A stretch of 48,348 nucleotides of DNA from positions 1 through 48,348 of the IMG/VR virus record IMGVR_UViG_3300042526_000206; one strand, given 5' to 3'. Of this stretch, positions 1 through 15,156 are shown in pieces; the stretch's first letter is position 1; each line of letters begins with the position of its first letter. Origin of the DNA: a virus. Made by a program: the position numbers and the translations under genes. The notes under the pieces are model-generated. The model made no database searches. It was given only the letters and a program-made list of their open reading frames with translations, and was not told where the DNA came from.

Positions 1-84
1 TATACCGAAAGATTCTCAATCGACTTCTTCGGTAACATGAGATGTAATCCACGCTACCAAGCTAAATTTGTAGCACTTACTTAA
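1..84 (+). CDS. C-terminal end of an upstream structural gene, possibly the major capsid protein (partial)
   Basis: An open frame runs from the first base of the window to a TAA at 82-84 and encodes the last 27 residues of a protein, ending in YQAKFVALT. The start lies outside the window. Its place directly before a small structural-type gene and the packaging genes makes a coat protein the most likely identity, but the fragment is too short to recognise a fold. The next gene starts 38 bases later with its own Shine-Dalgarno sequence. Identity is an inference from position only. Confidence 0.6.
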   Translation, partial: YTERFSIDFFGNMRCNPRYQAKFVALT

Positions 85-122
85 CATTCATTAGGAACTT
101 TTTTACTTAGGAGAAATTGATA

Positions 123-686
123 ATGGCTAGAAATGAAAACCCTCCCTTCGAGCGTGGTACTACCTTTTACGGCGGTGCTACAATTGACGCTAACGATCTT
201 GGTGGCGCAAACCTTGAAGGACAAGAGTTTGAATTTGAAGACTTAGTTACAGCAACCATTGGTTCTACCAAAATTGCTCGCTCTGGCCACAAGGTCAGGT
301 GTCGAGTAGTTCGTAACGCTGGATCTGCTGCTATTCTTCCAAAGACTATCACTGGATTTACCACTTCCACTACTGCTGGAACCTACGGTACTAAAGCTAC
401 CGGAACAGTTACAGCTGGTGGTGTTGGTTACCCAGTAGATGAACAACTCCCTGCAGCTGGTGTTCCAGTTGGGGACTTGTTCTATGTAGTTGTTGGCGGT
501 CCTGCGCTTATTTCACCCGCTTCTGGTGGTTGGACAGTAACGATTGCAGCTAACGATGTACTCAGTGCATTAGTTAACAAAGCTGTAACCAATGTCCTTC
601 CTTCCGGTGGGTTTGTAGTAGGCAGGGCTTGCTCCGGTGCTGCTACTTCTAGCACTGGCGATATTACTGCTTTCATTGGCAGATAA
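123..686 (+). CDS. small structural-type protein next to the coat gene (187 aa)
   Basis: The ATG at 123 is chosen over an in-frame TTG at 117 because AGGAG at 109-113 is well spaced from 123 and too close to 117. The product is rich in Gly, Ala, Val and Thr with alternating hydrophobic residues, as expected of a beta-rich protein, and has no signal peptide or membrane segment. A central Gly/Thr-rich stretch (about residues 75-115) resembles the loops of capsid decoration or stabilising proteins. It lies between the probable coat gene and a terminator, so it probably ends the head operon. Decoration or head-stabilising protein is a reasonable guess; I do not recognise the family. Confidence 0.75.
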   Translation: MARNENPPFERGTTFYGGATIDANDLGGANLEGQEFEFEDLVTATIGSTKIARSGHKVRCRVVRNAGSAAILPKTITGFTTSTTAGTYGTKATGTVTAGGVGYPVDEQLPAAGVPVGDLFYVVVGGPALISPASGGWTVTIAANDVLSALVNKAVTNVLPSGGFVVGRACSGAATSSTGDITAFIGR

Positions 687-699
687 GCCTTCGCTTAGA

Positions 700-720
700 C
701 ACTTGGGCAATGCCTAAGTG
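700..720 (+). other. stem-loop upstream of the terminator
   Basis: CACTTGGGC at 700-708 pairs with GCCTAAGTG at 712-720 (nine pairs, one G-U) around a three-base loop. It lies 13 bases after the stop of the preceding gene and 11 bases before the intrinsic terminator. No T-run follows it, so it is more likely a 3' mRNA stabiliser or processing hairpin than a terminator. Confidence 0.6.
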
Positions 721-731
721 AATGGATTAGT

Positions 732-764
732 AAGGGTGTAGCTTTTGTTGCACCCTTGCTTTTT
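732..764 (+). terminator. intrinsic (Rho-independent) terminator between head and packaging genes
   Basis: AAGGGTGTAGC at 732-742 pairs with GTTGCACCCTT at 747-757 (11 pairs including G-U wobbles) across a TTTT loop, and is followed by a T-run at 760-764. This is a textbook intrinsic terminator. It should end or attenuate transcription of the coat-gene operon before the packaging genes, whose first start codon is only 14 bases further on. Confidence 0.85.
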
Positions 765-777
765 ACATAGGATAGAA

Positions 778-1248
778 ATGCCTCCATCTTCAAACAAAAC
801 AGAAGCTAACTTACGCAGTAACCTGAAAGACGGAAAGAAGCTACCGCATCTTTCTGAGCTTGCTGAGAATTTCGTAAGGGTGGTTGGTGGTCCTTCTAAA
901 TTAGCAGAGATGCTTTTTGAAGAATGGATTGCTGCTGGTGAAGGATCTCTGGTTCGACAAAGAATATTAGATATCATTACTAGAGTTTGGAAGTTTGCTT
1001 CTGAGTCTGACGAAAAGCCAGATGACACTGGTCTTATGACTGACGAAGACCTTGACAGAGAGATTGACGGCGTTGTAAATCAAATCAAGGAGAAGTCAGA
1101 TGGAAGATCAAGAACCAAAGAGAGAGCTGACGCAGCTGGAAAAGTCAGTGATGAACTCGCTGCGGTGGTGGAAGACATCGGGTCTGAGCTCGCAGGAGAA
1201 TTTTCCAGACGGGATACTAACCCTCCAATCAGTAAAGAACCTGATTGA
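778..1248 (+). CDS. probable small terminase subunit or terL-associated protein (156 aa)
   Basis: The ATG at 778 follows the terminator directly; the upstream region gives only a weak purine-rich ribosome site. The protein is charged and mostly helical, with an N-terminal part (residues 1-80) that could hold a DNA-binding helical domain and an acidic, Lys/Glu-rich C-terminal half. Position immediately before terL is the classical place for a small terminase. The last 149 bases overlap the start of terL in another frame, which is long for a phage. I see no diagnostic HTH motif, so the small-terminase role is inferred from context. A regulatory or scaffolding role cannot be excluded. Confidence 0.65.
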   Translation: MPPSSNKTEANLRSNLKDGKKLPHLSELAENFVRVVGGPSKLAEMLFEEWIAAGEGSLVRQRILDIITRVWKFASESDEKPDDTGLMTDEDLDREIDGVVNQIKEKSDGRSRTKERADAAGKVSDELAAVVEDIGSELAGEFSRRDTNPPISKEPD

Positions 1249-3094
1249 TGAGCTGAATCTGACTGACAATAAACTGTCAGAAGACATGGCTCTCGATGTT
1301 GTTCAGAAAATTGTCGTTGCACATCTCTTAGATCAAAGCCGAAAACCTAAAGTAGCTAAAAAACAATTTGATGCTGTTGTTAAAAAACACTTTGATTTAA
1401 ACCCACCGATTGAACAGAAGGTCGAGCAAGTAACTTCTAAAGATAGAAGCAAAGAAACTTTTGATTACTCTGAACTTGGGCAAAGAGACAGTATTAGGTT
1501 TAAGAAACTTCTTGGCGAAGCTGCCAGACGCAAGATGGAAGCTCTTAAGATCTATGAGCCTACCGGAATCCAGCAAGCATTTCATTCGTCTAAAGCCACT
1601 CACCGATTAGTCCGTGGTGGAAACCGATCAGGTAAAACTACAGTGGCAGCTGTCGAATTGTCTAGAGCTGTTTGCGGTGTAGATCCTTTTTTAAAGTATC
1701 CGCTAGAAGGTGGCAGAGCTTTTTGCGTAGGTAGAAATCTTGATCATATTGGTAATGTAATGTGGAGAAAGCTAGGTAGAGCTGGTGCTTTTAGAATTAT
1801 ACGGGATTTAAAAACCAAACAATGGAGGACTTACAAACCTTGGGAAAAGTCAGACCTTGATCGGTTTCACCTTACTAAGCCATCACCTCCGCTAATTCCT
1901 AAAAGGCTAATCAAAAAGATAGCATGGGAAAACAAGGCCAAGAATATTCCTAAACTTGTTGTGCTAAACAACGGATGGGAAATAAGCTTTTACTCTTCAG
2001 AAGGTAAGCCACCTCAAGGTAGCGATATTGATATATTCTGGCTTGATGAGGAAATTGTAGATCCTGATTGGCATCCAGAATTAAGTGCTCGTATTTTGGA
2101 TCGAAAAGGTTGCGGGTTCTGGTCTGCTACTCCTCAAACTGGAACGGAAAAACTTCTTGAATTGCATGAACGAGCTTTGACAGAAAGAGAGAAGCACCCA
2201 GATGCCCCAGATGAAAGAACCGTGGACGAGTTTGTTATTATTTTGGATGACAACCCACACATCGGTGACAAAGAGAAAAAAGAATTTGCAGAAGGAATGT
2301 CAGAAGACGAACGGAAAGTTAGGATATCTGGCGAGTTTGCAATCAATAGTCTTAGGGTATTTCCAGAGTTTTCAAAAGCAATGCATGGAGTCGAGTTTTT
2401 TCAGATACCTAATGAGTGGACTAGGTATGCTGTTGTTGACCCCGGTAGGCAGGTTTGCTGCGTTTTGTTTTTTGCTATTCCTCCACCTATGCTTGGGAAT
2501 ACTATTTATCTATATGATGAGCTTTATATTTACAACTGTGATGCTGAACAGTTTGGCCAAAGAATGGCTCAAAAATCCGTAGGTCAGCAGTTTGAAAAGT
2601 TTGTAATAGATATGCATGGTGGGAGAATATCTGATATTGGTAGTGGTTTAAATGTTGAACAACAGTATTCAAGAGCGTTGCGTAAATACAAAGTTTATTC
2701 TGCTTCTACTGGCAGCGGTTTTCAATGGGGCTCAGATGATGTGCAGGGCGGTATTGAAGCTGCAAGATCATTTCTAAAAGTTAGAGAAGACGGGTCAATT
2801 AAATTAAAAGTATTTCCGCAATGTCCTAACTTTATGTGGGAAATAGAAAGGTACAGATACAAGAAAGAGCCAAGAGGTTATGTTACCGATAAGCCAGAAG
2901 ATAGAGGTAGGGTTCATGCTATGGCATGTTTTAGATACATGGCCATGAGTAATTTAAAATATGTGCAAAGGCACACTATGGAAAGAAAAGATGATACTGT
3001 GTTGAAAGCCTTGAAAGCGAAAGTCAGGCGCATGAACAAGCAAAACGGGGGCTTGGGCATGATTAATCTTGGCCCCGGTAAAGAAAAGGTGTGA
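1100..3094 (+). CDS. terL: terminase large subunit (664 aa)
   Basis: This is the ATP-driven packaging motor and headful/cos nuclease that docks on the portal. Visible motifs are Walker A GGNRSGKTT (about residues 173-181), a Walker B-like DIDIFWLDEE (about 309-318) with the catalytic acidic pair, and the first RNase H-like nuclease aspartate in AVVDPGR (about 447), followed by a second acidic motif in FVIDMHGG. The ATG at 1100 has a strong AGGAG at 1088-1092. About 170 residues precede Walker A, a longer N-terminal extension than usual. The gene overlaps the preceding one by 149 bases and ends three bases before the next ATG. Identification is firm. Confidence 0.95.
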   Translation: MEDQEPKRELTQLEKSVMNSLRWWKTSGLSSQENFPDGILTLQSVKNLIDELNLTDNKLSEDMALDVVQKIVVAHLLDQSRKPKVAKKQFDAVVKKHFDLNPPIEQKVEQVTSKDRSKETFDYSELGQRDSIRFKKLLGEAARRKMEALKIYEPTGIQQAFHSSKATHRLVRGGNRSGKTTVAAVELSRAVCGVDPFLKYPLEGGRAFCVGRNLDHIGNVMWRKLGRAGAFRIIRDLKTKQWRTYKPWEKSDLDRFHLTKPSPPLIPKRLIKKIAWENKAKNIPKLVVLNNGWEISFYSSEGKPPQGSDIDIFWLDEEIVDPDWHPELSARILDRKGCGFWSATPQTGTEKLLELHERALTEREKHPDAPDERTVDEFVIILDDNPHIGDKEKKEFAEGMSEDERKVRISGEFAINSLRVFPEFSKAMHGVEFFQIPNEWTRYAVVDPGRQVCCVLFFAIPPPMLGNTIYLYDELYIYNCDAEQFGQRMAQKSVGQQFEKFVIDMHGGRISDIGSGLNVEQQYSRALRKYKVYSASTGSGFQWGSDDVQGGIEAARSFLKVREDGSIKLKVFPQCPNFMWEIERYRYKKEPRGYVTDKPEDRGRVHAMACFRYMAMSNLKYVQRHTMERKDDTVLKALKAKVRRMNKQNGGLGMINLGPGKEKV

Positions 3095-3096
3095 TT

Positions 3097-3435
3097 ATGA
3101 GTGGATCTTCCGCAATGATTATTGGAGCTATTGCCAAAGAAGGCTTTAAAGATGCTTGCCAGTTTTTAGATTATTCGCCTAAAAACGAAGAACTTGATGA
3201 AAATTCTTGGACAGCAATAGGCGAATGGGCACTAAACAACCCAGATGGCAAGGTAAAAGATTTAGCCTCCCAGATCGCAAAACTTTGTAATAGTGAGCCA
3301 AATGAGAAATCTTTAGTTGCGTGGGAAGCTGCGATTATGGTACTTTATAACACTGTTATTGAGCCTGAAGAAAAGTTTGATCTTGACGGATGGCTTAAAT
3401 CAGTGAAGCCCCTAGAAATTGCTCAAGGAGAATGA
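3097..3435 (+). CDS. hypothetical small acidic protein (112 aa)
   Basis: The start is the ATG at 3097, with AAGG at 3086-3089; an in-frame GTG at 3091 overlaps the terL stop and is too close to the ribosome site. The product is acidic and probably all-helical, with Trp-containing segments, no membrane segment and no recognised motif. It sits between terL and the portal in a tight run, so it is co-transcribed with packaging genes. A packaging accessory or head-assembly role is possible, but function is unknown. Confidence 0.8.
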   Translation: MSGSSAMIIGAIAKEGFKDACQFLDYSPKNEELDENSWTAIGEWALNNPDGKVKDLASQIAKLCNSEPNEKSLVAWEAAIMVLYNTVIEPEEKFDLDGWLKSVKPLEIAQGE

Positions 3436-3436
3436 T

Positions 3437-3733
3437 ATGCCCTCGTTTGTTATGCCTAATATTTTTGTTGGTGATATGGTGCTTTGGTATCATGCAGCGG
3501 ATAGGACTACTGCGCCAAGGCCAGCGGTTGTTACTCATGTTGGAGCAGAAACTATTGCTTGCAGCGTGTTTGAAAAAGATAGCGTAACCATTCGGTGTAT
3601 GGATGGAGTAAGACATTTAGATGATCCTACTACACAAATACCTGAAGCCAGAGAAGCTGGAGCTTGGACTTTGGTTATGCGAATAACTGAACAACAACAA
3701 AAACAAAAAGGCGCATTTGCTGTTGCGAAATAA
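3437..3733 (+). CDS. hypothetical small beta-rich protein (98 aa)
   Basis: AAGGAG at 3425-3430 lies six bases before the ATG at 3437, one base after the previous stop. The N-terminal half (residues 8-55), with PNIFVGDMVLWYHA followed by alternating hydrophobic residues, looks like a small beta-barrel or SH3-like fold. The C-terminus carries a Gln-rich tail (EQQQKQKG). It lies directly before the portal gene. No family recognised; a small virion or assembly factor is plausible from position. Confidence 0.8.
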   Translation: MPSFVMPNIFVGDMVLWYHAADRTTAPRPAVVTHVGAETIACSVFEKDSVTIRCMDGVRHLDDPTTQIPEAREAGAWTLVMRITEQQQKQKGAFAVAK

Positions 3734-3736
3734 TAA

Positions 3737-5677
3737 ATGAAAGAAGACTCCCTCTTAGCCCCTATAGTTACTGCATGGTTGAAAAAAATTCAGCTTGCTT
3801 ATGATTTTAAGCAGGATGAATTTGGTAAGGATGCCGAAACTTGTATGCAGTTCTTTGATGGCCCATACGATTTTATGTATGGTCTCAAAAAGGGTGGAGG
3901 GGGAGGGCTTTCTTTTACTGGAAGCGCAGACGATTTCCCTAGACCTACCTTTGCTATGACGGTTAATAAAGTTGCAGAAATGGTCCAGCTCTTTGGGCCA
4001 GCACTTTATTCAAGAAATCCACATCGAAAAGTAAATCCAAGAGTTGTTATGGATATTCCTGAAGGGGCTTTTGCTCCTTTTAATCCGCAGCAATTTGGAC
4101 CAATGTTTGAACAACTTCAAGAGATGAACATTAAGCAGACAAAGCTTGATGGAGCTAGAGCACTTCTGCTTGAAAATTATTTAAATTTTACCCCTGATGC
4201 ACTTAACCTTAAAGATCATTCAAGACGAGCGATTGATGAGGCGTTAATTAAAGGCATGGGCGTACTTTGGACAAGGCCCTATGTATCTCCCGGAACAGGA
4301 AAGAAATTTGTTGGTAGCTTCTACGACACTGTAGACAATTTGGTTATTGATCCTGATATGGAAACAATTGCTGAAGCAGGATGGATAGCTAAACGCTGTG
4401 TTGATCCTGTGTGGCAAGTAGAACGAGATTTTGGCCTAGTTGCTGGTACTTTGTCTGGCCATCTTGAATCATATAACCAGCAAGGTAATCTCATGGGAGA
4501 AGGCACTGCTGGAGATTACAAGCGTAAACAAGGTAAAACAAATGACCTTCTTGTCTATTGGAAAGTCTACTCTAAGGTTGGTGTTGGTGGGCGTTTGTCT
4601 GGTGTTCCAAAAGAAAATCTTGAACCGCTAGAAGAGTACGGTGATTACGCTTATCTTGCTGTATGCGACAAAGTAGATTACCCGCTTAACCTTCCTCCTG
4701 ATATTCAAAATGGCGGGGATGACGCAGAAATTAAGCGAAGGTTAGAATGGGATACTCCATTCTGGGCTGATGACAGCTGGCCAATGACTCCTATTATTTT
4801 CCATGAAAGGCCAAGAAAAGTTTGGCCTATGTCGCATCTTAAACCCGGTCTTGGTGAGCTTAAATTTATTAACTGGGTGTATTCATTTATTGCTGGAAAA
4901 ATTAGAGTTTCGTGCAGAGATTTTCTTGCAATTAAAAAATCAGTTGGCGAAGAAATTAAGTCTACTATTCTTCACGGTACAGACTATGAGCTTTTAGAAA
5001 TAGATGAAACTCATGGTACTGTTACTGATGTAGTTCAATTCCTTCAGCATCCTCCATTTAATTCGGACATCTGGCAGGTTCTATCTGCCGTTGAGAGAAA
5101 CTTTGAAAAGCGTGTAGGGCTCACGGAGTTGGTTTATGGCGAATCGGCTGCATCATACCGTTCTGCCACGGAAGCTCAGAGTAAAACGGAACAAACGAAA
5201 ATTCGCCCTGACGATATGGCGAACAAAGTTGAAGACGCAATGACAGATGTTGCCAAGAAAGAAGCTCTTGCTGTTCGTTGGCATCTTACTGGTAACGATG
5301 TGGTTAATGTTGTTGGTAAGCCAATTGCTTTTCTATGGGATCAGCTTATTGTATCTAGCGATCCAAATGACATCTTGCACAACCTTGAATACAGAGTTGC
5401 TGCTGGCAGTTCGATGAAGCCAAACAAGCAGCGTGACGCAGATAACATGGGTCTTGCCATGCAAAATATCTTGCCTAGTCTATCCAGCTTCGCACAAAAT
5501 ACTGGAGATTTTACTGCAGTCAATGCGCTTCTTCAGGATTGGGCTAAGACGATGGACCTTGATATTTCTAAGTATCTGATTCAGCCACCGCCTCCACCTC
5601 CTCCGGGCATGATGCCACCAGAAGGCATGCCACCGGAAGGAGTGCCACCTGAAATGATGCCACCACAAGGAGCTTAA
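3737..5677 (+). CDS. portal protein (646 aa)
   Basis: Forms the dodecameric ring at the capsid vertex through which DNA is pumped and to which the tail attaches. Length, position after terL, the N-terminal helical segment, and a long alpha/beta core with PTFAMTVNKVAEMVQLFGP and later helical stretches fit a podovirus-type portal. The C-terminus (about residues 615-646) is a low-complexity Pro/Met/Gly tail of MPPEG/MPPQG units, related to the 192-residue protein at 32832-33410. There is no clear Shine-Dalgarno sequence before the ATG at 3737, three bases after the previous stop, suggesting translational coupling. Identification rests on context and general features rather than a catalytic motif. 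Confidence 0.85.
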   Translation: MKEDSLLAPIVTAWLKKIQLAYDFKQDEFGKDAETCMQFFDGPYDFMYGLKKGGGGGLSFTGSADDFPRPTFAMTVNKVAEMVQLFGPALYSRNPHRKVNPRVVMDIPEGAFAPFNPQQFGPMFEQLQEMNIKQTKLDGARALLLENYLNFTPDALNLKDHSRRAIDEALIKGMGVLWTRPYVSPGTGKKFVGSFYDTVDNLVIDPDMETIAEAGWIAKRCVDPVWQVERDFGLVAGTLSGHLESYNQQGNLMGEGTAGDYKRKQGKTNDLLVYWKVYSKVGVGGRLSGVPKENLEPLEEYGDYAYLAVCDKVDYPLNLPPDIQNGGDDAEIKRRLEWDTPFWADDSWPMTPIIFHERPRKVWPMSHLKPGLGELKFINWVYSFIAGKIRVSCRDFLAIKKSVGEEIKSTILHGTDYELLEIDETHGTVTDVVQFLQHPPFNSDIWQVLSAVERNFEKRVGLTELVYGESAASYRSATEAQSKTEQTKIRPDDMANKVEDAMTDVAKKEALAVRWHLTGNDVVNVVGKPIAFLWDQLIVSSDPNDILHNLEYRVAAGSSMKPNKQRDADNMGLAMQNILPSLSSFAQNTGDFTAVNALLQDWAKTMDLDISKYLIQPPPPPPPGMMPPEGMPPEGVPPEMMPPQGA

Positions 5678-5680
5678 GCT

Positions 5681-6337
5681 ATGCCACCACAAGGAAGTAG
5701 AGCGTTTACAAGTTTAACAGCAGAAGATCAATGGGCAATGGCTAATGGGCTGTCTAAGCCTAATTCTGGTTCATGGAAATATAACTGGAACACTAATGAT
5801 ATTGACAACGAATTTTCTACGATGCCACATTATTTGCAAGCTACTTTGCTGCAATCTATGAATGCTGCTAGGCAAAGAATTTATTCGCAACAGCTACAAT
5901 ACGATAATAACCAAAAAAGTAAAGCTGCTGCAGACGCTGCAAAAGCTGCTGCAGACGCTGAAAAAGCTGCAAAAAAAGCAGCTAACCTGTCAGGCGGTCA
6001 AGCATCAGTTCCATCAGTACAGCAACGCATGATGTCGAGGATGGGTCAAGCTGTCCAGAAGGGTGTGAATAAAGGTAAGATTAATTCTAACCAACTTGGC
6101 AAGTACCAAGTTCCGGGGCAGCAACCTACTTCGCCTTTGGCTAATCAGTTAGGTAATCCAGAGCCCAATTATCAATTTTACAGACCAATGCCAAACAAAA
6201 ATGTACCTGATGCAAATGGGGTTGCAACAAGAATTGGCTATGAGCAGTATCGTGGAGATGCTGGTCGAGATCAATATGCTAATGCAAAAACTCCAGTGCC
6301 TATGCCAAATAAACTTAGTACAAATGAGCTTCGTTAA
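5681..6337 (+). CDS. disordered duplicated protein A1 (218 aa)
   Basis: The ATG at 5681 follows AGGAG at 5667-5671, which lies inside the end of the portal gene; the first codons repeat the portal's last MPPQG-encoding bases. Residues 75-105 are an Ala/Lys-rich helix, followed by a motif block (VPSVQQRM, MGQAVQKGVNKGKIN, KYQVPGQQP) and a C-terminus of PVPMPNKLSTNELR. The same block and C-terminus recur in the gene at 7027-7557, making a two-gene duplication. Composition (Gln, Asn, Pro, Ala) predicts disorder. Function unknown; position after the portal suggests a scaffold, head-plug or ejected protein, but nothing in the sequence proves it. Confidence 0.8.
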   Translation: MPPQGSRAFTSLTAEDQWAMANGLSKPNSGSWKYNWNTNDIDNEFSTMPHYLQATLLQSMNAARQRIYSQQLQYDNNQKSKAAADAAKAAADAEKAAKKAANLSGGQASVPSVQQRMMSRMGQAVQKGVNKGKINSNQLGKYQVPGQQPTSPLANQLGNPEPNYQFYRPMPNKNVPDANGVATRIGYEQYRGDAGRDQYANAKTPVPMPNKLSTNELR

Positions 6338-6533
6338 TTAAGGATTTTAAAATGCCAACAAATGAAATACCATCAGTAGCACAGCGCATGAACGGCATGG
6401 GTGCAGCCAAAGGTACTGGTATTACTAAAAGTTCTATTAAGCAAAACTTGTTAAATAAGCCTCGTCAGCAAGGCCAAGCAAGATCACAACAAAAAGCAAA
6501 CCCTATTCCTTATAAGGTTCCCGGACAAGCAGC
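6283..6533 (+). repeat. near-perfect direct repeat, copy 1
   Basis: This 251-base stretch covers the last codons of A1, the intergenic ribosome site and the first 60 codons of B1. It matches 7503-7753 at an offset of exactly 1220 bases, with four mismatches by my count. Homology continues further upstream at lower identity (about 5983-6163 against 7282-7460). It is the trace of a recent duplication or gene-conversion event. Confidence 0.95.
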
Positions 6534-7011
6534 GCAACCATTAACAGCACCTTTGGGAGCACCTGCACCTGCCCCTACAGGACCATCAGCTGGATATGCA
6601 CCCGGTTTTGGTCCTGAGGGCCCAGTCAAATATGATGCAAATGGATATCCAATTCCACAAAAAATGCCAGATGAAAGGTTTAAGTATAAATATAATCCTA
6701 AGCCGGGTGGATTTAGAATGACACCTGAAAATCAAGCAAAATACGAGCAAAGTGCAGTGCCTATGTGGGATGGATTTAATACAAAGCCTCAAACAAATTT
6801 GTACACTGAAGACGGAATGCCTAACGGAATGTTTGGCATGACTACACTAAAAGGTTTTATGAGTAACAAAGACTATAAACCACCAACACCTGAAGAAATA
6901 GCAGCAGGAAATGCTAAGTATATGAGAGATTTTGCAGCTGGAACAGTAGGTGATCGACATAAACCTAACCCAAATAAAGGTTATGTAAATTACGCAGCAC
7001 AAAATCGTTAA
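6352..7011 (+). CDS. disordered duplicated protein B1 (219 aa)
   Basis: Begins MPTNEIPSVAQRMNGMG with a modest AAGGA site at 6339-6343. The first 60 residues are almost identical to those of the protein at 7572-8420 because the DNA from the end of A1 into B1 is repeated (6283-6533 and 7503-7753). It also carries a looser version of the A-type motif (PSVxQRM, then KVPGQ), so A and B are probably distant paralogues. The rest is Pro/Gly/Tyr-rich with no hydrophobic core pattern or membrane segment. Function unknown. Confidence 0.8.
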   Translation: MPTNEIPSVAQRMNGMGAAKGTGITKSSIKQNLLNKPRQQGQARSQQKANPIPYKVPGQAAQPLTAPLGAPAPAPTGPSAGYAPGFGPEGPVKYDANGYPIPQKMPDERFKYKYNPKPGGFRMTPENQAKYEQSAVPMWDGFNTKPQTNLYTEDGMPNGMFGMTTLKGFMSNKDYKPPTPEEIAAGNAKYMRDFAAGTVGDRHKPNPNKGYVNYAAQNR

Positions 7012-7026
7012 TTAAGGAGTTATACA

Positions 7027-7557
7027 ATGGCTAACACTTATATTACACAGGATGAATTTAACAAGGTATGGGCTCCACATGGAGGTCATCCGGGAATGCT
7101 TGGTCTTGATGCAACACCCGGATATGTAGATCCGGGTGATGGAAGCCAAGCTTGGAAATATACTAGGTACGGTGGTGCTACCGGAATGAAAAATCCTGTG
7201 TATATAAAGTACGCTAATATGGTTGGCGGTGGTTTTTTTGATAGGCCACTACCTAAAAAAACAACTACTCCTGCAGCACCTAATTTATCAGGAGGTCAAG
7301 CTACAGTCCCAACGGTAGAACAGCGCATGTCGAGGATGGGCCAAGCTGTTCAAAAGGGTGTAAATAAAGGTAAGATTAATTCAAAGCAGCTTAGCAAGTA
7401 CCAAGTACCGGGGCAGCAACCAGCTTCGCCTTTAGTAAATCGGTTAAGTGGTCCAGAAAATGACTTGGCTTTTAACATGCCCCGTAATCAATATGCTGGT
7501 GGTGCAAAAACTCCAGTGCCTATGCCAAACAAACTTAGTACAAATGAGCTTCGTTAA
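7027..7557 (+). CDS. disordered duplicated protein A2 (176 aa)
   Basis: AAGGAG at 7013-7018 precedes the ATG at 7027. The N-terminal 80 residues (Gly/Tyr/Trp-containing) are unlike A1, while residues 90-145 repeat the A1 block (LSGGQA, VPTVEQRMSRMGQAVQKG, KYQVPGQQP) and the C-terminus is the identical PVPMPNKLSTNELR. The paralogue pair A2-B2 follows A1-B1 directly. The conserved block between variable ends suggests a binding motif for a shared partner such as the portal or coat. Function unknown. Confidence 0.8.
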   Translation: MANTYITQDEFNKVWAPHGGHPGMLGLDATPGYVDPGDGSQAWKYTRYGGATGMKNPVYIKYANMVGGGFFDRPLPKKTTTPAAPNLSGGQATVPTVEQRMSRMGQAVQKGVNKGKINSKQLSKYQVPGQQPASPLVNRLSGPENDLAFNMPRNQYAGGAKTPVPMPNKLSTNELR

Positions 7558-7753
7558 TTAAGGATTTTAAAATGCCAACAAATGAAATACCATCAGTAGC
7601 GCAGCGCATGAACGGCATGGGTGCAGCCAAAGGTACTGGTATGACTAAAAGTTCTATTAAGCAAAACTTGTTTAATAAGCCTCGTCAGCAAGGCCAAGCA
7701 AGATCACAACAAAAAGCAAACCCTATTCCTTATAAGGTTCCCGGACAAGCAGC
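7503..7753 (+). repeat. near-perfect direct repeat, copy 2
   Basis: Second copy of the 251-base repeat, spanning the end of A2, the intergenic ribosome site and the start of B2. It differs from copy 1 at four positions, so identity is about 98 percent. The boundaries are sharp: identity stops at base 7753, inside the codons following KVPGQA. Confidence 0.95.
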
Positions 7754-8420
7754 TAGGCCAGAAATAGGTACAGCACCTGTTTCGCCTTTGGTTAATCAGC
7801 CAAATCAATTTGTAAATTATAACGCTCCTAGTAGGAACGACCTAGTAACAGGAGGCAGGAGCGAATACGCTAGTGATACAGCTTTCAGAGGCACAAACGC
7901 TGCTCCAGCACCTGTTCCTATGCCACAAAAAGCTTCCCCTACTCCACCTAGTGAGCCAATGAGTGGTGCTGCCTACGCTGCTAAATTTTATACTCCTTTT
8001 ACACCAGAACAAGCAGCAAAAAATGAAAAAGACGCTGCATTATACAAAAGTGATTATTCTCAATGGTTAGCTAACTGGAAAGTTGATCAAGCTAATAACA
8101 ATAAAAATTATCAACCGCCATCAAACCAGACTTCTACATCGTATAGGCCAACTGTAAATAATCCGCAAAACAATACTTACTCGCAAGTGCAAGTAGCTCC
8201 TCCAGAAAATGTAGGCGCTAAAATGAATGCCGATGGTTTCACTTATAATGATCCAAAAACAGGAAGGCTTATCTACACAAGGCCTCCAGTTTGGAATCCA
8301 GAAACAGATGGTCAGGAAGGTGTGGAAAGAACGCACAGAGCAAAAGGTGGTCAGTTTGCTATGGGATTAGATGGGAAAATGATTCCCGTTTTAGGACCAC
8401 ATCCCGGAGCCAAGAAGTAA
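7572..8420 (+). CDS. disordered duplicated protein B2 (282 aa)
   Basis: Shares its first 60 residues with B1 and then diverges. Later residues are Asn/Gln/Pro/Tyr-rich, including APVPMPQKASPTPP, a relative of the A-type C-terminal PVPMPNKLS motif. It ends HPGAKK. No enzymatic motif, signal or membrane segment is visible. It closes the duplicated four-gene block and is followed five bases later by a very small gene. Unknown function; probably a disordered virion or assembly protein. Confidence 0.8.
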   Translation: MPTNEIPSVAQRMNGMGAAKGTGMTKSSIKQNLFNKPRQQGQARSQQKANPIPYKVPGQAARPEIGTAPVSPLVNQPNQFVNYNAPSRNDLVTGGRSEYASDTAFRGTNAAPAPVPMPQKASPTPPSEPMSGAAYAAKFYTPFTPEQAAKNEKDAALYKSDYSQWLANWKVDQANNNKNYQPPSNQTSTSYRPTVNNPQNNTYSQVQVAPPENVGAKMNADGFTYNDPKTGRLIYTRPPVWNPETDGQEGVERTHRAKGGQFAMGLDGKMIPVLGPHPGAKK

Positions 8421-11489: not shown

Positions 11490-11774
11490 ATGAACCTGAT
11501 TCATCAGCCTAAAATATCAATTAAAAAGTTTACTGGTGCAGGTTATGTACCTACAGCGTCACAGCTAGGTATAGGCGAATTAGGTGTAAACTCGACAGAT
11601 TCAAGGGTCTATACAAAAAATCAATCTGGGGTCGTTGTAGATGTTGGAGCTGCGTCTATTTCGTCACTTACTGATGTTCAACTAACAAGCCTAGCAAACG
11701 ATAATTTTCTTCAGTACAACACTGCTGCTTCTAAGTGGGTAAATTCATCTGCTTTAGATGGCGGTAATTTTTAA
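11490..11774 (+). CDS. short fibre-type protein with N-terminal attachment-like module (94 aa)
   Basis: Residues 8-50 (IKKFTGAGYVPTASQLGIGELGVNSTDSR and on) match the pattern seen at the start of the next fibre genes: a basic strand, xVPSxL, then ELAxN and a short aromatic strand. This pattern is reminiscent of N-terminal domains of phage tropism-determinant and fibre proteins. The C-terminus ALDGGNF repeats the DGGxF tag of the two following proteins. There is no clear Shine-Dalgarno sequence, three bases after the previous stop. Probably a small fibre or adaptor protein. Confidence 0.7.
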   Translation: MNLIHQPKISIKKFTGAGYVPTASQLGIGELGVNSTDSRVYTKNQSGVVVDVGAASISSLTDVQLTSLANDNFLQYNTAASKWVNSSALDGGNF

Positions 11775-11786
11775 AAAGGAGTAAAC

Positions 11787-12737
11787 ATGGCAACTGTATT
11801 GAGAATTAAAAGAAGGGCTTCTGCAGGTGCAGCAGGTGCTCCGTCAACTTTAGCTCCTGCCGAGCTTGCATATTCGGAAGTAGACAATATTTTATATTAT
11901 GGGTTTGGAGATACTGGAACAGGAGTGTCTTCTACTGTTGTTCCTATTGCTGGAACAGGTTCTTTTTTAACAACTACTACAACCCAGACTGTATCTGGTG
12001 CTAAGACATTCTCCAACATTACTATTACTGGTGGTTCAGTAACTGGCATAACAGATTTAGCAATAGCTGACGGCGGTACTGGAGCGTCAACTGCAGCTAC
12101 AGCAAGAGCAAATCTTCTTCCATCATTTGCTGGTAATGCTGGTAAAGTTATGCTTGTAAACGCTGGTGCTACAGATGTTGAGTATGTTACCCCTAACCCC
12201 GGCACAGTAATTTCTATAGGCATGACTGTCCCTAACATTATGTCTGTTTCTGGTTCGCCAATTACTTCAACTGGCACATTAGCTGTGACTTTGACAACTC
12301 AAACAGCAAACTATGTTTGGGCTGGACCAACAACAGGATCTCCTGCAAATCCAACATTCCGTGCTTTAGTGTCTACGGACATTCCATCGTTATCATACTT
12401 GCCTTTAGCTGGCGGTACAGTTTCAGGAGCTTTAACCGTAACTGGGGATTTAACAGTTTCTGGCACTACAACTACAGTTAACTCAACCACACTTGTTGTG
12501 GCAGATAAGAACATTGAGCTTGCTTATGGCTCTACTACTGAAGCAGCAGCAACGGGTGGCGGTGTGACTTTGCATGGTCTTACTGACCATACTATTCTTT
12601 ACACTACTGGAACTTCTTCATGGGATTTTTCTGAACATGTTAACCTAGCTACTGGAAAAGCGTTTAAAATTAATGGAACAACAGTCCTTTCTGCTACCGC
12701 TTTAAGTGGTGTGGATATAGACGGAGGGAGTTTCTGA
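11787..12737 (+). CDS. tail fibre protein (316 aa)
   Basis: AAGGAG at 11776-11781 precedes the ATG. The N-terminal module (TVLRIKRRASAGAAGAPSTL, then PAELAYSE) resembles the other fibre genes here. Residues 90-130 carry ADGGTGASTAATARANLLPS, a repeat type common in phage fibres, and LPLAGGTVSGALTVTGDLTV in the middle is a typical fibre shaft sequence. The C-terminus ends DIDGGSF. It overlaps the next start by one base (TGATG). Part of the host-recognition apparatus; receptor unknown. Confidence 0.85.
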   Translation: MATVLRIKRRASAGAAGAPSTLAPAELAYSEVDNILYYGFGDTGTGVSSTVVPIAGTGSFLTTTTTQTVSGAKTFSNITITGGSVTGITDLAIADGGTGASTAATARANLLPSFAGNAGKVMLVNAGATDVEYVTPNPGTVISIGMTVPNIMSVSGSPITSTGTLAVTLTTQTANYVWAGPTTGSPANPTFRALVSTDIPSLSYLPLAGGTVSGALTVTGDLTVSGTTTTVNSTTLVVADKNIELAYGSTTEAAATGGGVTLHGLTDHTILYTTGTSSWDFSEHVNLATGKAFKINGTTVLSATALSGVDIDGGSF

Positions 12738-13738
12738 TGCCAAGTTATTGCGTTTCGGGTGCTGGAACAACGGCATACAATGGAACATACGATCCTTTTT
12801 CATCATCTGAATACAGAAAAGTAGGGACACCTACAATAAAGATTGTTTATAATGGTGATGAACTCTGGTATTTTATTAACGGCAGTACGGAAGGGTATAC
12901 TACAAGCAGTTCGAGTGCTACACCACCTCTGACTGGATGGACTGTTTCAGGAAACGGCACATCACCAGCACCAACGCTAACAGAGGGAGCCTGTTTAGTA
13001 GATCCTTATTGTGTGGCAGGAGCAGACAACGCAGCGGTAAATGGAACCTACAGTTATATTTCTGGGTCTTCTCCAACCACCATGTATTTTAGTTCTGGAT
13101 ATTGGGAAAAAGTTGGGGGTACAATCCAAATCGGCTACAACAATATGCAGTCGAGGTACACGATATCAGAGGGGTATTCGGATTATTATACTGCCGATTC
13201 TTTAACTGGTCCGTGGTCTGTTGCTTATGGTGGTACTGGAACAGCACCAACAGTTACAGCGGGTGCGTGTGGAGCAACACCTACTCCAACAGTTACAGCA
13301 ATTTCGCCATCAACAGGCACTACAGCAGGTGGCACAAGTGTTACGATTACCGGAACAGGTTTAACAGGTGCAACCGCTGTTACCATTGGAGGCACAGCAG
13401 CGACAGGAGTAACAGTTGTTAGCTCAACAAGTATTACTGCAACAACTCCTGCGGGCACAGCAGGGGCAAAAAGTGTTTTGGTTACAACAGCAGGGGGTAC
13501 TAATACAGCTAATAGCTTGTATACTTTTACTACCCCTTCACCTAGCCCAACTCCAGCAAATATTATTAGACCAAAAAGGAGTACAACTGCTACAGCTGTA
13601 CCATCTAGTCTTCAACCGTATGAGCTGGCGGTTAATATTCCTGATAAAAAAATATGGGTGGCTGACGCAAGCGGAACTCCAGTTTTAATGAGTGAGCTTA
13701 ATGATCTGCCGTCATCTATAGATGGAGGCACTTTTTAG
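12737..13738 (+). CDS. fibre/adhesin-like protein with twin Cys modules and an IPT/TIG domain (333 aa)
   Basis: Residues 1-175 hold two copies of a module of about 90 residues that starts SYCVSGAG / PYCVAGAD and ends LTEGAC / VTAGAC, each containing NGTY and aromatic strands, probably disulphide-bridged or metal-stabilised. Residues 185-268 (AISPSTGTTAGGTSVTITG onward) are an IPT/TIG Ig-like domain. The C-terminal part repeats the IRPKRS...VPSSL...ELAVN fibre module and ends SSIDGGTF. GGAGGGAG directly precedes the overlapping ATG. Likely a surface-binding protein; the order (binding modules before the attachment-like module) is unusual. Confidence 0.8.
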   Translation: MPSYCVSGAGTTAYNGTYDPFSSSEYRKVGTPTIKIVYNGDELWYFINGSTEGYTTSSSSATPPLTGWTVSGNGTSPAPTLTEGACLVDPYCVAGADNAAVNGTYSYISGSSPTTMYFSSGYWEKVGGTIQIGYNNMQSRYTISEGYSDYYTADSLTGPWSVAYGGTGTAPTVTAGACGATPTPTVTAISPSTGTTAGGTSVTITGTGLTGATAVTIGGTAATGVTVVSSTSITATTPAGTAGAKSVLVTTAGGTNTANSLYTFTTPSPSPTPANIIRPKRSTTATAVPSSLQPYELAVNIPDKKIWVADASGTPVLMSELNDLPSSIDGGTF

Positions 13739-13740
13739 CG

Positions 13741-15156
13741 ATGGCAAACACCATTCGACCGAAAAGATCATATACAGCAGCAGCAGTTCCTTCTGGACTT
13801 TTAGCTTCTGAGCTTGCAATCAATGCAGCAAGCCCTGCAAAAATTTGGATAGGTTCGGCTGATGGTTTAAGTTCGGTTTTAGTTGCATCATTGGCATTTT
13901 CAGACCATGTAGGAACTACAGATAACATAACACAAGGAACAACCAATAAATTTTATGCTGATGCTTTAGCAAGAGCATCTATATCTTCATCTGCAACAGG
14001 GCTAACTTATACTTCTTCAACAGGAGTGTTTTCTTTAAATGCTTCTTATGCAATTCCAACAATTGCAAAACAAACTCAATGGGATACTGCATATACCCAA
14101 ACTCAACAATGGAACGGAGGTGCTACCAATCTTATAGCAGCAACAGCAAGAACTTCACTAGGGTTAGTAATTGGCACGAATGTACAAGCATGGGATGGTG
14201 ACTTAGATGCAATTGCAGCCATAACAGGCACAACAGGAATATTAAAAAAAACATCAGCAAACACTTGGTCATTAGACACATCAACTTATTTAACTGCAAA
14301 CCAAACTATTACATTAAGTGGCGATGTTACTGGTAGCGGTTCTACAGCGATTACAACCACCCTAGCAACCGTATCAATTGCAAAAGGGGGCACAGGTCAA
14401 ACTACAGCTAATGCCTCTGTAAATGCTTTGCTACCAAGTCAAACAGGAAACAGCGGTAAATACCTTACAACCAATGGCACAGATACTTCATGGGGTACAG
14501 TTTCCGCAGGATCTTCAATTCCTTCTGGTTCTATGCAAATGTATGCAGGTGCAATTACTCAAACGGTAAGTGCTGGAACCGTTACAACTACAGCACCTAC
14601 TGGATGGTTATTGGCTAACGGGAATGCGGTTTCACGAACTACCTATAGTGCGTTATGGACAGCATTAGGAACGACTTCTAGCCCCTATGGGCAAGGCGAT
14701 GGAAGTACAACATTTAACTTGCCCGATTTAAGATCAAGGGTTCCTATTGGTGTGGGTCAAGCCTCTGGTCTTTCAAATAGAACTCTTGGGGGTACAGTTG
14801 GTGCAGAAACAGTTGCGTTGTCAACGGCTGAAATGCCACAGCATAACCATACAGCAACAGATTCTGGTCATGCCCATACAACATCCGTGGGTACACAAAC
14901 TGCTAATCACAACCACGCTTCAAACAATCTTGCCTTGTTTTTTGTTAACACTGGTGGAGGGGCGGTTTTATCTGGTGGAACAAGCTGGCAAGCGTATAAT
15001 TTTAACCAAGTTATGCAAGGTGAAACACAAACCCATACTCATAGTGTGACAGTTAATAATGGAACAGCTAATGTTAGTATTGGAAACTCAGGATCTGGCT
15101 CTGCCCATAATAATATGCAGCCTTCAATTGGGTTGAACTACATTATAAAAACATAG
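13741..15156 (+). CDS. tail fibre with phage tail collar domain (471 aa)
   Basis: Begins ANTIRPKRSYTAAAVPSGL and continues ELAIN, the shared N-terminal module. The middle has KGGTGQTTANASVNALLPS, a fibre repeat also present in the 316-residue protein. Residues from about 258 form a tail-collar type domain (QMYAG, then APTGWLLANGNAVSRTTYSALW and FNLPDLRSRVPIGVG), followed by a His-rich tip with HNH, HAH, HNH and HTH pairs like metal-binding short-fibre tips, and NMQPSIGLNYIIKT at the end. Very likely the receptor-contacting fibre. The previous stop lies two bases upstream. Confidence 0.9.
   Translation: MANTIRPKRSYTAAAVPSGLLASELAINAASPAKIWIGSADGLSSVLVASLAFSDHVGTTDNITQGTTNKFYADALARASISSSATGLTYTSSTGVFSLNASYAIPTIAKQTQWDTAYTQTQQWNGGATNLIAATARTSLGLVIGTNVQAWDGDLDAIAAITGTTGILKKTSANTWSLDTSTYLTANQTITLSGDVTGSGSTAITTTLATVSIAKGGTGQTTANASVNALLPSQTGNSGKYLTTNGTDTSWGTVSAGSSIPSGSMQMYAGAITQTVSAGTVTTTAPTGWLLANGNAVSRTTYSALWTALGTTSSPYGQGDGSTTFNLPDLRSRVPIGVGQASGLSNRTLGGTVGAETVALSTAEMPQHNHTATDSGHAHTTSVGTQTANHNHASNNLALFFVNTGGGAVLSGGTSWQAYNFNQVMQGETQTHTHSVTVNNGTANVSIGNSGSGSAHNNMQPSIGLNYIIKT

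Follow-up and report, generated by a model that had tools for sequence, protein, structure and literature searches.

A C-terminal DGGxF tag as the probable plug between consecutive tail fibre segments in virus record IMGVR_UViG_3300042526_000206

Four genes follow one another on the + strand at 11490-15156 of the IMG/VR virus record IMGVR_UViG_3300042526_000206 (48,348 bases, referred to below as the window) and encode proteins of 94, 316, 333 and 471 amino acids (aa); the first three end in a short tag of the DGGxF type, and all four carry a module of about 50 residues. We propose, with a probability of roughly 0.8, that the tag acts as a plug at the C-terminus, that the module is its socket, probably a trimeric one, and that the two join consecutive fibre segments head to tail. 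The four genes would encode consecutive segments of a single tail fibre (94 → 316 → 333 → 471 aa), gene order presumably being the order in the fibre. The module on each segment would probably form a small trimer, the “socket”, and each non-terminal segment would end in a six-residue “plug”, [hydrophobic]-D-G-G-x-[F/Y]-COOH, binding the module of the next segment as gp36 binds gp37 in phage T4. The residue x would be adapted to the socket: modules of one class (R) would mostly take N (or E), those of the other (K) T or S. The tip would need no plug, and fused segments, which share a single chain, would lack it; if the next gene begins no more than 3 nucleotides (nt) from the stop codon, the glycine codons would usually read GGAGG, the same DNA serving also as Shine-Dalgarno sequence. 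The features are the following:

11490..11774, + strand: proposed first segment (adaptor), 94 aa, with a module, one “LTDV..” stretch and the C-terminal tag LDGGNF
11490..11645, + strand: module of the 94-aa protein (residues 1-52), with a weakly predicted collagen XV/XVIII-like trimerization fold
11754..11771, + strand: tag LDGGNF of the 94-aa protein, where x is N, as expected before an R-class module
11776..11781, + strand: AAGGAG, a separate Shine-Dalgarno-like site of the 316-aa gene
11787..12737, + strand: proposed second segment, 316 aa, with an N-terminal R-class module and the tag IDGGSF
11787..11948, + strand: R-class module of the 316-aa protein (residues 1-54), proposed socket for the 94-aa tag
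12717..12734, + strand: tag IDGGSF of the 316-aa protein
12723-12727, + strand: GGAGG inside the 316-aa tag, 9 nt before the ATG at 12737, for which it can act as Shine-Dalgarno
12737..13738, + strand: proposed third segment, 333 aa, with an N-terminal YCVSGA..NGTY region, a TIG Ig-like domain, a module and the tag IDGGTF
13286..13531, + strand: IPT/TIG domain (PF01833) of the 333-aa protein, residues 184-265 (Pfam, E 1e-15)
13556..13696, + strand: module of the 333-aa protein (residues 274-320), on the C-terminal side, after the TIG domain
13718..13735, + strand: tag IDGGTF of the 333-aa protein
13724-13728, + strand: GGAGG inside the 333-aa tag, 12 nt before the ATG at 13741
13741..15156, + strand: proposed terminal segment (tip), 471 aa, with an N-terminal module and a phage tail collar domain, without a tag
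13741..13887, + strand: module of the 471-aa protein (residues 1-49), proposed socket for the 333-aa tag
14584..14745, + strand: Phage Tail Collar domain (PF07484) of the 471-aa protein, residues 282-335 (E 1e-16)

An earlier, sequence-only reading of this DNA had given the ends of the three open reading frames (ORFs) closing at 11774, 12737 and 13738 as ALDGGNF, DIDGGSF and SIDGGTF, had claimed a module common to these proteins and the collar fibre, and had placed it in the 333-aa protein on the C-terminal side, directly before the tag. The endings read as stated, the module was located in all four proteins, and in the 333-aa protein it indeed occupies residues 274-320. When the modules were aligned at both levels, all six pairwise protein comparisons scored 4.5-12.3 standard deviations above shuffles, while DNA identity was 48-62%; together these values point to an old homology of the modules and no recent DNA duplication, and a DNA-level duplication within the window was rejected on the same identities. 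Pfam gave no family at E ≤ 1 over the modules of the four window proteins or over the N-terminus of T4 gp37; the 471-aa protein matches PF07484 with 61.1 bits (cut-off 24).

The presence of the tag depends on the gene that follows. We examined 78 loci sought by the module, with no requirement for a tag (80 were kept, two of which were already in the set), comprising 139 module ORFs, 132 of them with a preceding ORF. The preceding ORF ends in GGx[FY] in 108 of these 132 cases, including 81 with DGGx[FY]; among distinct pairs, 96 of 120 are tagged. Among the module proteins themselves, 47/49 are tagged when a module gene comes next and 9/80 when it does not, 10 module proteins truncated by a contig end being excluded from the latter count. 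As for the nine exceptions, the next gene, lying before the next module gene, is coiled-coil-like in seven (a character judged by eye) and of the FPPYFPP-repeat type in one, and the ninth is in L208 (loci are cited here by L numbers). Background ORFs of at least 80 aa in the same 78 loci end in GGx[FY] in 17 cases out of 464, and the starts and neighbours of all 17 suggest genes of the fibre series or fragments thereof. A second module-based scan (82 new loci of 120 stretches) found 71 tagged ORFs among 79 preceding ones, the eight misses including DGGNW twice, DAGNF and DGGTI, and in bacterial genome contigs the preceding ORF is tagged in 11 of 12 loci, among them records of Stutzerimonas, Limnohabitans, Bowmanella and Endozoicomonas.

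The same association appears when the search starts from the tag. Among ORFs of at least 50 aa in the window and 29 related loci (24 found by the portal protein and 5 by the 94-aa protein), endings of the tag type occur only on members of this gene series; the absence of the tags from related phages, which the sequence-only reading had named as an outcome that would speak against it, is not what we see. We then scanned the DNA of the viral collection for the tag followed by a start codon, the module not being required, and obtained at least 120 stretches, with 121 matches among those listed. Of these 121, 114 lie at the ends of ORFs that are at least 60 aa long or truncated at a contig end. 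Of the 113 ORFs of at least 35 aa that come after the listed matches, 95 carry the module at E ≤ 1e-3. A scrambled control (GDGxF-stop) run over the whole viral collection matched 38 stretches, 27 with a real stop, of which 5 close an ORF that is either at least 60 aa long or truncated at a contig end; its raw count cannot be set against that of the tag, as the control pattern is four-fold less degenerate and the tag count is a lower bound. Within 422 module proteins, the strict motif is C-terminal in 170 instances; it has another position in 7, of which 6 fall one residue short of the end.

The tag also varies with its neighbour. The next modules fall into two classes, R (IRIKRR..ELAxNE) and K (KRS..GELAxNxxD); the R class of the 316-aa module is shown on an identical-looking protein in L378. 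We tested the residue x of GGx[FYW] on 118 non-redundant pairs with complete upstream ORFs, drawn from 326 distinct pairs after two of ambiguous class had been dropped. Regardless of the upstream protein, x tends to be N or E before an R module and T or S before a K module: N/E is found in 27/45 against 2/19 when the upstream protein has no module (p 2.8e-4), in 3/6 against 0/38 when it is itself of class R (p 0.0015) and in 4/4 against 1/6 when it is of class K (p 0.048). With the class of the next module held fixed, upstream proteins without a module and those of class R showed no detectable difference (p 0.68 and 0.11), and a less strict set of pairs agrees with the trend. The residue x therefore tracks the class of the next module and not that of its own protein, which would be the pattern expected of matched binding partners, with a contribution that shared descent can make.

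Fused genes add a further line of evidence. In L004/L012, the anchor module is fused to a fibre of 1118 aa, without a tag, and in L368/L370, L373 and L381-383 the front part and the module of the 333-aa type continue into the tip as one chain, from which the tag is gone. These cases bear on the idea that the tag is a C-terminal cap, serving the folding or trimerization of its own protein or recognized by a common fibre chaperone, and is unrelated to the protein that follows. The tag does stand at the extreme C-terminus of fibre proteins whose C-terminal regions otherwise differ, it also ends some coiled-coil-like proteins, T4 fibre chaperones are described in PMC3004832, and the monomer models discussed below give docking no support; but a cap would not be expected to depend on a following chain gene, to vary with the next module and not with the class of its own protein, or to go missing from fused versions, and we hold it to be improbable.

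Eight other contigs (L367, L369, L372, L374, L375, L376, L379 and L380) hold proteins arranged like the 333-aa one as regards the YCVSGA..NGTY front part, the module and the tag; each time, the upstream protein ends in VDIDGGSF and a module gene lies downstream. The 333-aa type is the only one with an internal module among the 422 module proteins at the cut used (weaker internal hits occur in L235 and L246), and relatives of its front part in L371 and L391 have no detected module. The 316-aa tag would bind the internal module of the 333-aa protein, whose front domains would stand out as side arms. In L381-L383, a collagen-like (GDQGWQGDQGFQG) protein of at least 1666 aa (1-5001) ends in IDGGAF before a 333-type segment, so that the proposed plug sits there on a collagen-like rod.

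One has to keep in mind that a DGG-encoding sequence can also be read as DNA. The codons could have been kept because GGNGG is the Shine-Dalgarno sequence of the next gene, the protein tag being a by-product. Indeed, 26 of the 31 distinct junctions at which the next start lies at most 3 nt from the stop use GGA for the first glycine and so read GGAGG, whereas GGA makes up 18% of the 3,885 glycine codons of the same genes; in the sample of the tag scan, among the matches listed, GGA is found in 27/53 at gaps of at most 3 nt and in 8/55 otherwise. In the window, the tags at 12723 and 13724 are of this GGAGG kind, with gaps of -1 and 2 nt. However, GGA falls to 4/41 at gaps of 4-20 nt and to 0/27 beyond 20 nt, and the protein tag is still kept; F/Y, D and x are conserved with no Shine-Dalgarno role, and the 94-aa tag, which reads GGCGGT, is followed by its own AAGGAG. 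The bases of the tag thus often double as a Shine-Dalgarno sequence, and the peptide is kept where they cannot serve so. As the sole cause, this explanation is already refuted by the tags far from the next start, and we regard it as very improbable. Joining of the proteins by stop-codon read-through was also considered: the first two genes of the window are in frame, yet many relatives have gaps of -1, 1 or 2 nt, so that read-through cannot be general.

The closest known counterpart of this joint is in phage T4. A tblastn search with the 94-aa protein gave a match over residues 8-55 to the distal long tail fibre subunit of Citrobacter phage Merlin, and the K-class profile finds the N-terminus of T4 gp37 with E 8e-17. 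Conversely, a profile built only from ten T4-like gp37 N-termini and searched against the 13 window proteins and 65 shuffles ranked the four fibre proteins as its top four (E 3e-13, 7e-6, 0.0016 and 0.025), the best match being to residues 2-58 of the 94-aa protein; that of the 471-aa protein is weak, at 0.025 against 0.069 for the best shuffle. In the phage collection, 1,190 records contain a match to the start of Merlin gp37. All 11 T4-like phages that we looked at (T4, T6, 133, PEi20, Lazarus, Proteus PM2, Klebsiella 15882-3-5, Merlin, Pectobacterium PM2, Miro and GEC-3S) have a D[FY]Gx[FY] ending on the gene before gp37, with one extra Ser in Merlin; outside the T4-likes, IDGGTYS and DEGTY precede a module gene in Methylophilales phage Melnitz-2 and Achromobacter phage Motura, respectively.

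Two reviews (PMC3004832 and PMC9603124) describe trimeric gp36 as binding the N-terminal region of gp37, C-terminal end to N-terminal end, and the latter, of 2022, says that an atomic structure of whole long tail fibres had not been presented; a sequence search of the PDB found no solved structure for T4 gp37 residues 1-70 or for T4 gp36 at E ≤ 0.01. As in the window, gp37 starts with the module and the upstream gene ends in D[FY]Gx[FY], and on these likenesses the window joint looks homologous to that of gp36 and gp37. The two differ in that the third tag position is F in T4 and G in the window, that T4 gp36 matches the Pfam family Phage_T4_gp36 (PF03903) whereas the 94-, 316- and 333-aa proteins do not, and that gp36-gp37 is a single joint of this kind, whereas three such joints follow one another in the window, with two classes of modules and a matched x.

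The series recurs, shorter or longer, in relatives of the window (24 loci found by the portal protein, 5 by the 94-aa protein), for example as 95 aa (tag), 316 aa (tag) and 691 aa (module, without tag) in L003/L009, or 95 aa (tag), 362 aa (tag) and a module gene in L015. Between the close relatives represented by the window, L003 and L012, proximal segments are nearly identical and distal ones different, which is compatible with the exchange of tips between phages behind conserved anchors. The same observation would fit shared ends that are recombination seams, that is, DNA conserved for fibre-tip exchange with no binding function. Against such seams, the module DNA is no more than 48-62% identical within the window, the three window tags differ at synonymous sites, and the motif is kept at the protein level in T4-like gp36 ends, with another third residue (D[FY]G); of the explanations considered here, we give this one the least credit.

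Tagged series are also found in cultured phages: 75 aa (INGGNF) then 527 aa (LDGGTF) in Prochlorococcus phage P-SSM2; gp050 (SGGSF), gp051 (IDGGTF) and gp052 in Synechococcus phage S-CBS2; and 146, 173, 159 and 598 aa, the first three tagged, in Vibrio phage 172P1. In these three records, the fibre genes are annotated as hypothetical or under other names, and no joint is annotated. S-CBS2 gp051 (L352, 5001-6125), for example, is annotated “head decoration protein”; its module, its tag and its neighbours make it a middle fibre segment.

Next, we turned to structure prediction. Two chains, each made of a tag and the following module, were folded as AlphaFold2 monomers: the window 94-aa protein with the start of the 316-aa protein, and a pair from L336 with its natural spacer of 14 residues. 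The modules are folded, with block means of confidence of 90-91 and 75-87 for the first and second window modules and 72-93 for that of L336 (60 at its very start). The best structural match of both predicted modules is the trimerization domain of collagen XV/XVIII: five such entries lead the VIA-align list of the first model at Z 4.6-4.8 (next unrelated row 3.4), and those of the second reach Z 3.1-3.7 (next rows 2.5), values below the Z of 8 under which a match may reflect no more than a shared arrangement. Two antagonist-bound spike entries stand among the top seven of each list and, judged by title and range, probably carry the collagen trimerization domain; N-termini of streptococcal phage hyaluronate lyases come lower, matched over their first 67 residues or so. 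The scores are weak, and the main support for a collagen-like fold is the agreement of two models from different proteins. No sequence similarity to the module was found in collagen XV/XVIII or in the hyaluronate lyases, and with these scores we do not claim membership of either group. Sequence searches of the PDB with the module profile, a 159-aa relative and the 316-aa protein gave no convincing match, the engrailed hits being short chance matches that we rejected.

Several observations weigh against a joint made by the tag and the next module. In the two monomer models, the tag region is of low confidence (block means of 73 and 56 in the window chain and 53 in that of L336) and pTM, the predicted template modelling score, is 0.38 and 0.47; the models therefore lend no support to docking; the fibres are probably trimers, and the models are of monomers. 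The fold matches are weak, with Z below 5 and Foldseek E above 1 for the collagen domains. The preceding gene has no GGx[FY] in 24 of the 132 cases, and 18 of the 113 ORFs that follow listed tags carry no module at E ≤ 1e-3; these 18 include weak matches (L049, L054 and L104), coiled-coil-like genes and an unrelated MAQIIDKQMS.. gene. Most query modules were taken from genes that had been found behind tags, which makes the module-sought loci not fully independent, and the matching of classes may partly reflect shared ancestry since neighbouring genes travel together. In the window itself, the 316-aa tag precedes a protein whose module is not N-terminal. Individual phages also depart from the rule: the first segment of Limnohabitans phage DC31 ends in ESGQY; a tagged protein of P-SSM2 precedes a coiled-coil-like gene; the module gene of Synechococcus phage ACG-2014f is preceded by an untagged HNH endonuclease gene; gp031 of S-CBS2, before the module gene gp032, ends in SGGTFGSG; and the first tag of 172P1 (LIDGGVY) precedes a protein with a different N-terminus (RAELDKIA..). 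As that protein starts with RAELDKIA..LDRE, this first tag must have another partner.

With these points counted, the proposal of a common docking peptide, made by the sequence-only reading, is supported by the dependence of the tag on a following chain gene, by the match between x and the next class, by the absence of the tag from fused segments and by the likeness to T4 gp36-gp37. We infer that the peptide itself makes the contact with the next module and that the segments of the window fibre are trimeric.

Some neighbouring genes and variants deserve mention. In 172P1, two tagged proteins start with the RAELDKIA..LDRE region and not with the module (L188, 5040-6001). Coiled-coil-like proteins of 145-203 aa lie before a module gene, mostly after a tagged fibre protein (at about 3400-4000), in L235, L246, L259, L263, L240, L230, L232, L238 and L265; five of the nine end in a tag-like manner (KDGGSF, KTGGTF, KSGGTF) and four in IDDF or DDDF. 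In L207, L214, L217 and L258, long FPPYFPPYFPP-repeat proteins ending in FPPxFK replace the tagged protein before the module gene. In L384-L387, L390 and L392, the fibre-like genes before module genes end in the variants DCGTY, DCGEY, DCGVFG and DAGVFG, and small genes in the same position in LDGQTY, LDGSTY and FDANTY; the motif is therefore wider than DGGxF. Elsewhere in the window, at 5681-8420, a two-gene unit is repeated in tandem (218 + 219 aa, then 176 + 282 aa), the ends of the first members (..PVPMPNKLSTNELR) and the starts of the second (MPTNEIPSVAQRMNGMGAAKGTG) being near-identical.

Short conserved peptides that join one fibre or spike protein to another are known from phages K1E, K1-5 and SP6 and from the receptor-binding proteins of Klebsiella phages, where T4gp10-like docking sites are involved (PMC6872550). 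The window shares with them the principle of a short conserved peptide that would link two fibre proteins. The peptides of K1E, K1-5 and SP6, of 7 or 11 residues, are N-terminal, whereas the window tag is C-terminal and as such falls outside the class of N-terminal docking peptides; those of the K1E/K1-5/SP6 and Klebsiella systems vary from one phage group to another and attach a second protein to a gp10-like domain, whereas the window tag is shared across groups and appears to join segments in line. Among gp10-named Pfam families, only a below-cut-off match to Gp10_C was obtained, in the collar region of the 471-aa tip. A jumbo-phage paper (PMC9700779) concerns branching, and one on the T7-like Vibrio phage Peru-2 (PMC13320782) has no bearing on the joint. 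Literature searches with literal tag strings and with motif and docking-peptide terms returned no paper on this tag in phage fibres, a statement about these searches and not a claim of wider absence.

On balance, we lean slightly towards a still broader view, in which the plug [ILVT]-D-[G/F/Y/C]-G-x-[F/Y]-COOH and a small trimeric socket would form a general, interchangeable joint, with at least two matched classes fixing the order of the segments, in T4-like phages, cyanophages, Zobellviridae, phage-like bacterial loci and the window phage, so that the fibres of many tailed phages would be strung together by the same code. If this is true, the last six residues of T4 gp36, a classic protein, become the subject of a testable prediction, and sequence alone would predict which gene products form one fibre and in what order, as well as which of them is the host-contacting tip, and would do so also for viruses represented only by environmental contigs.

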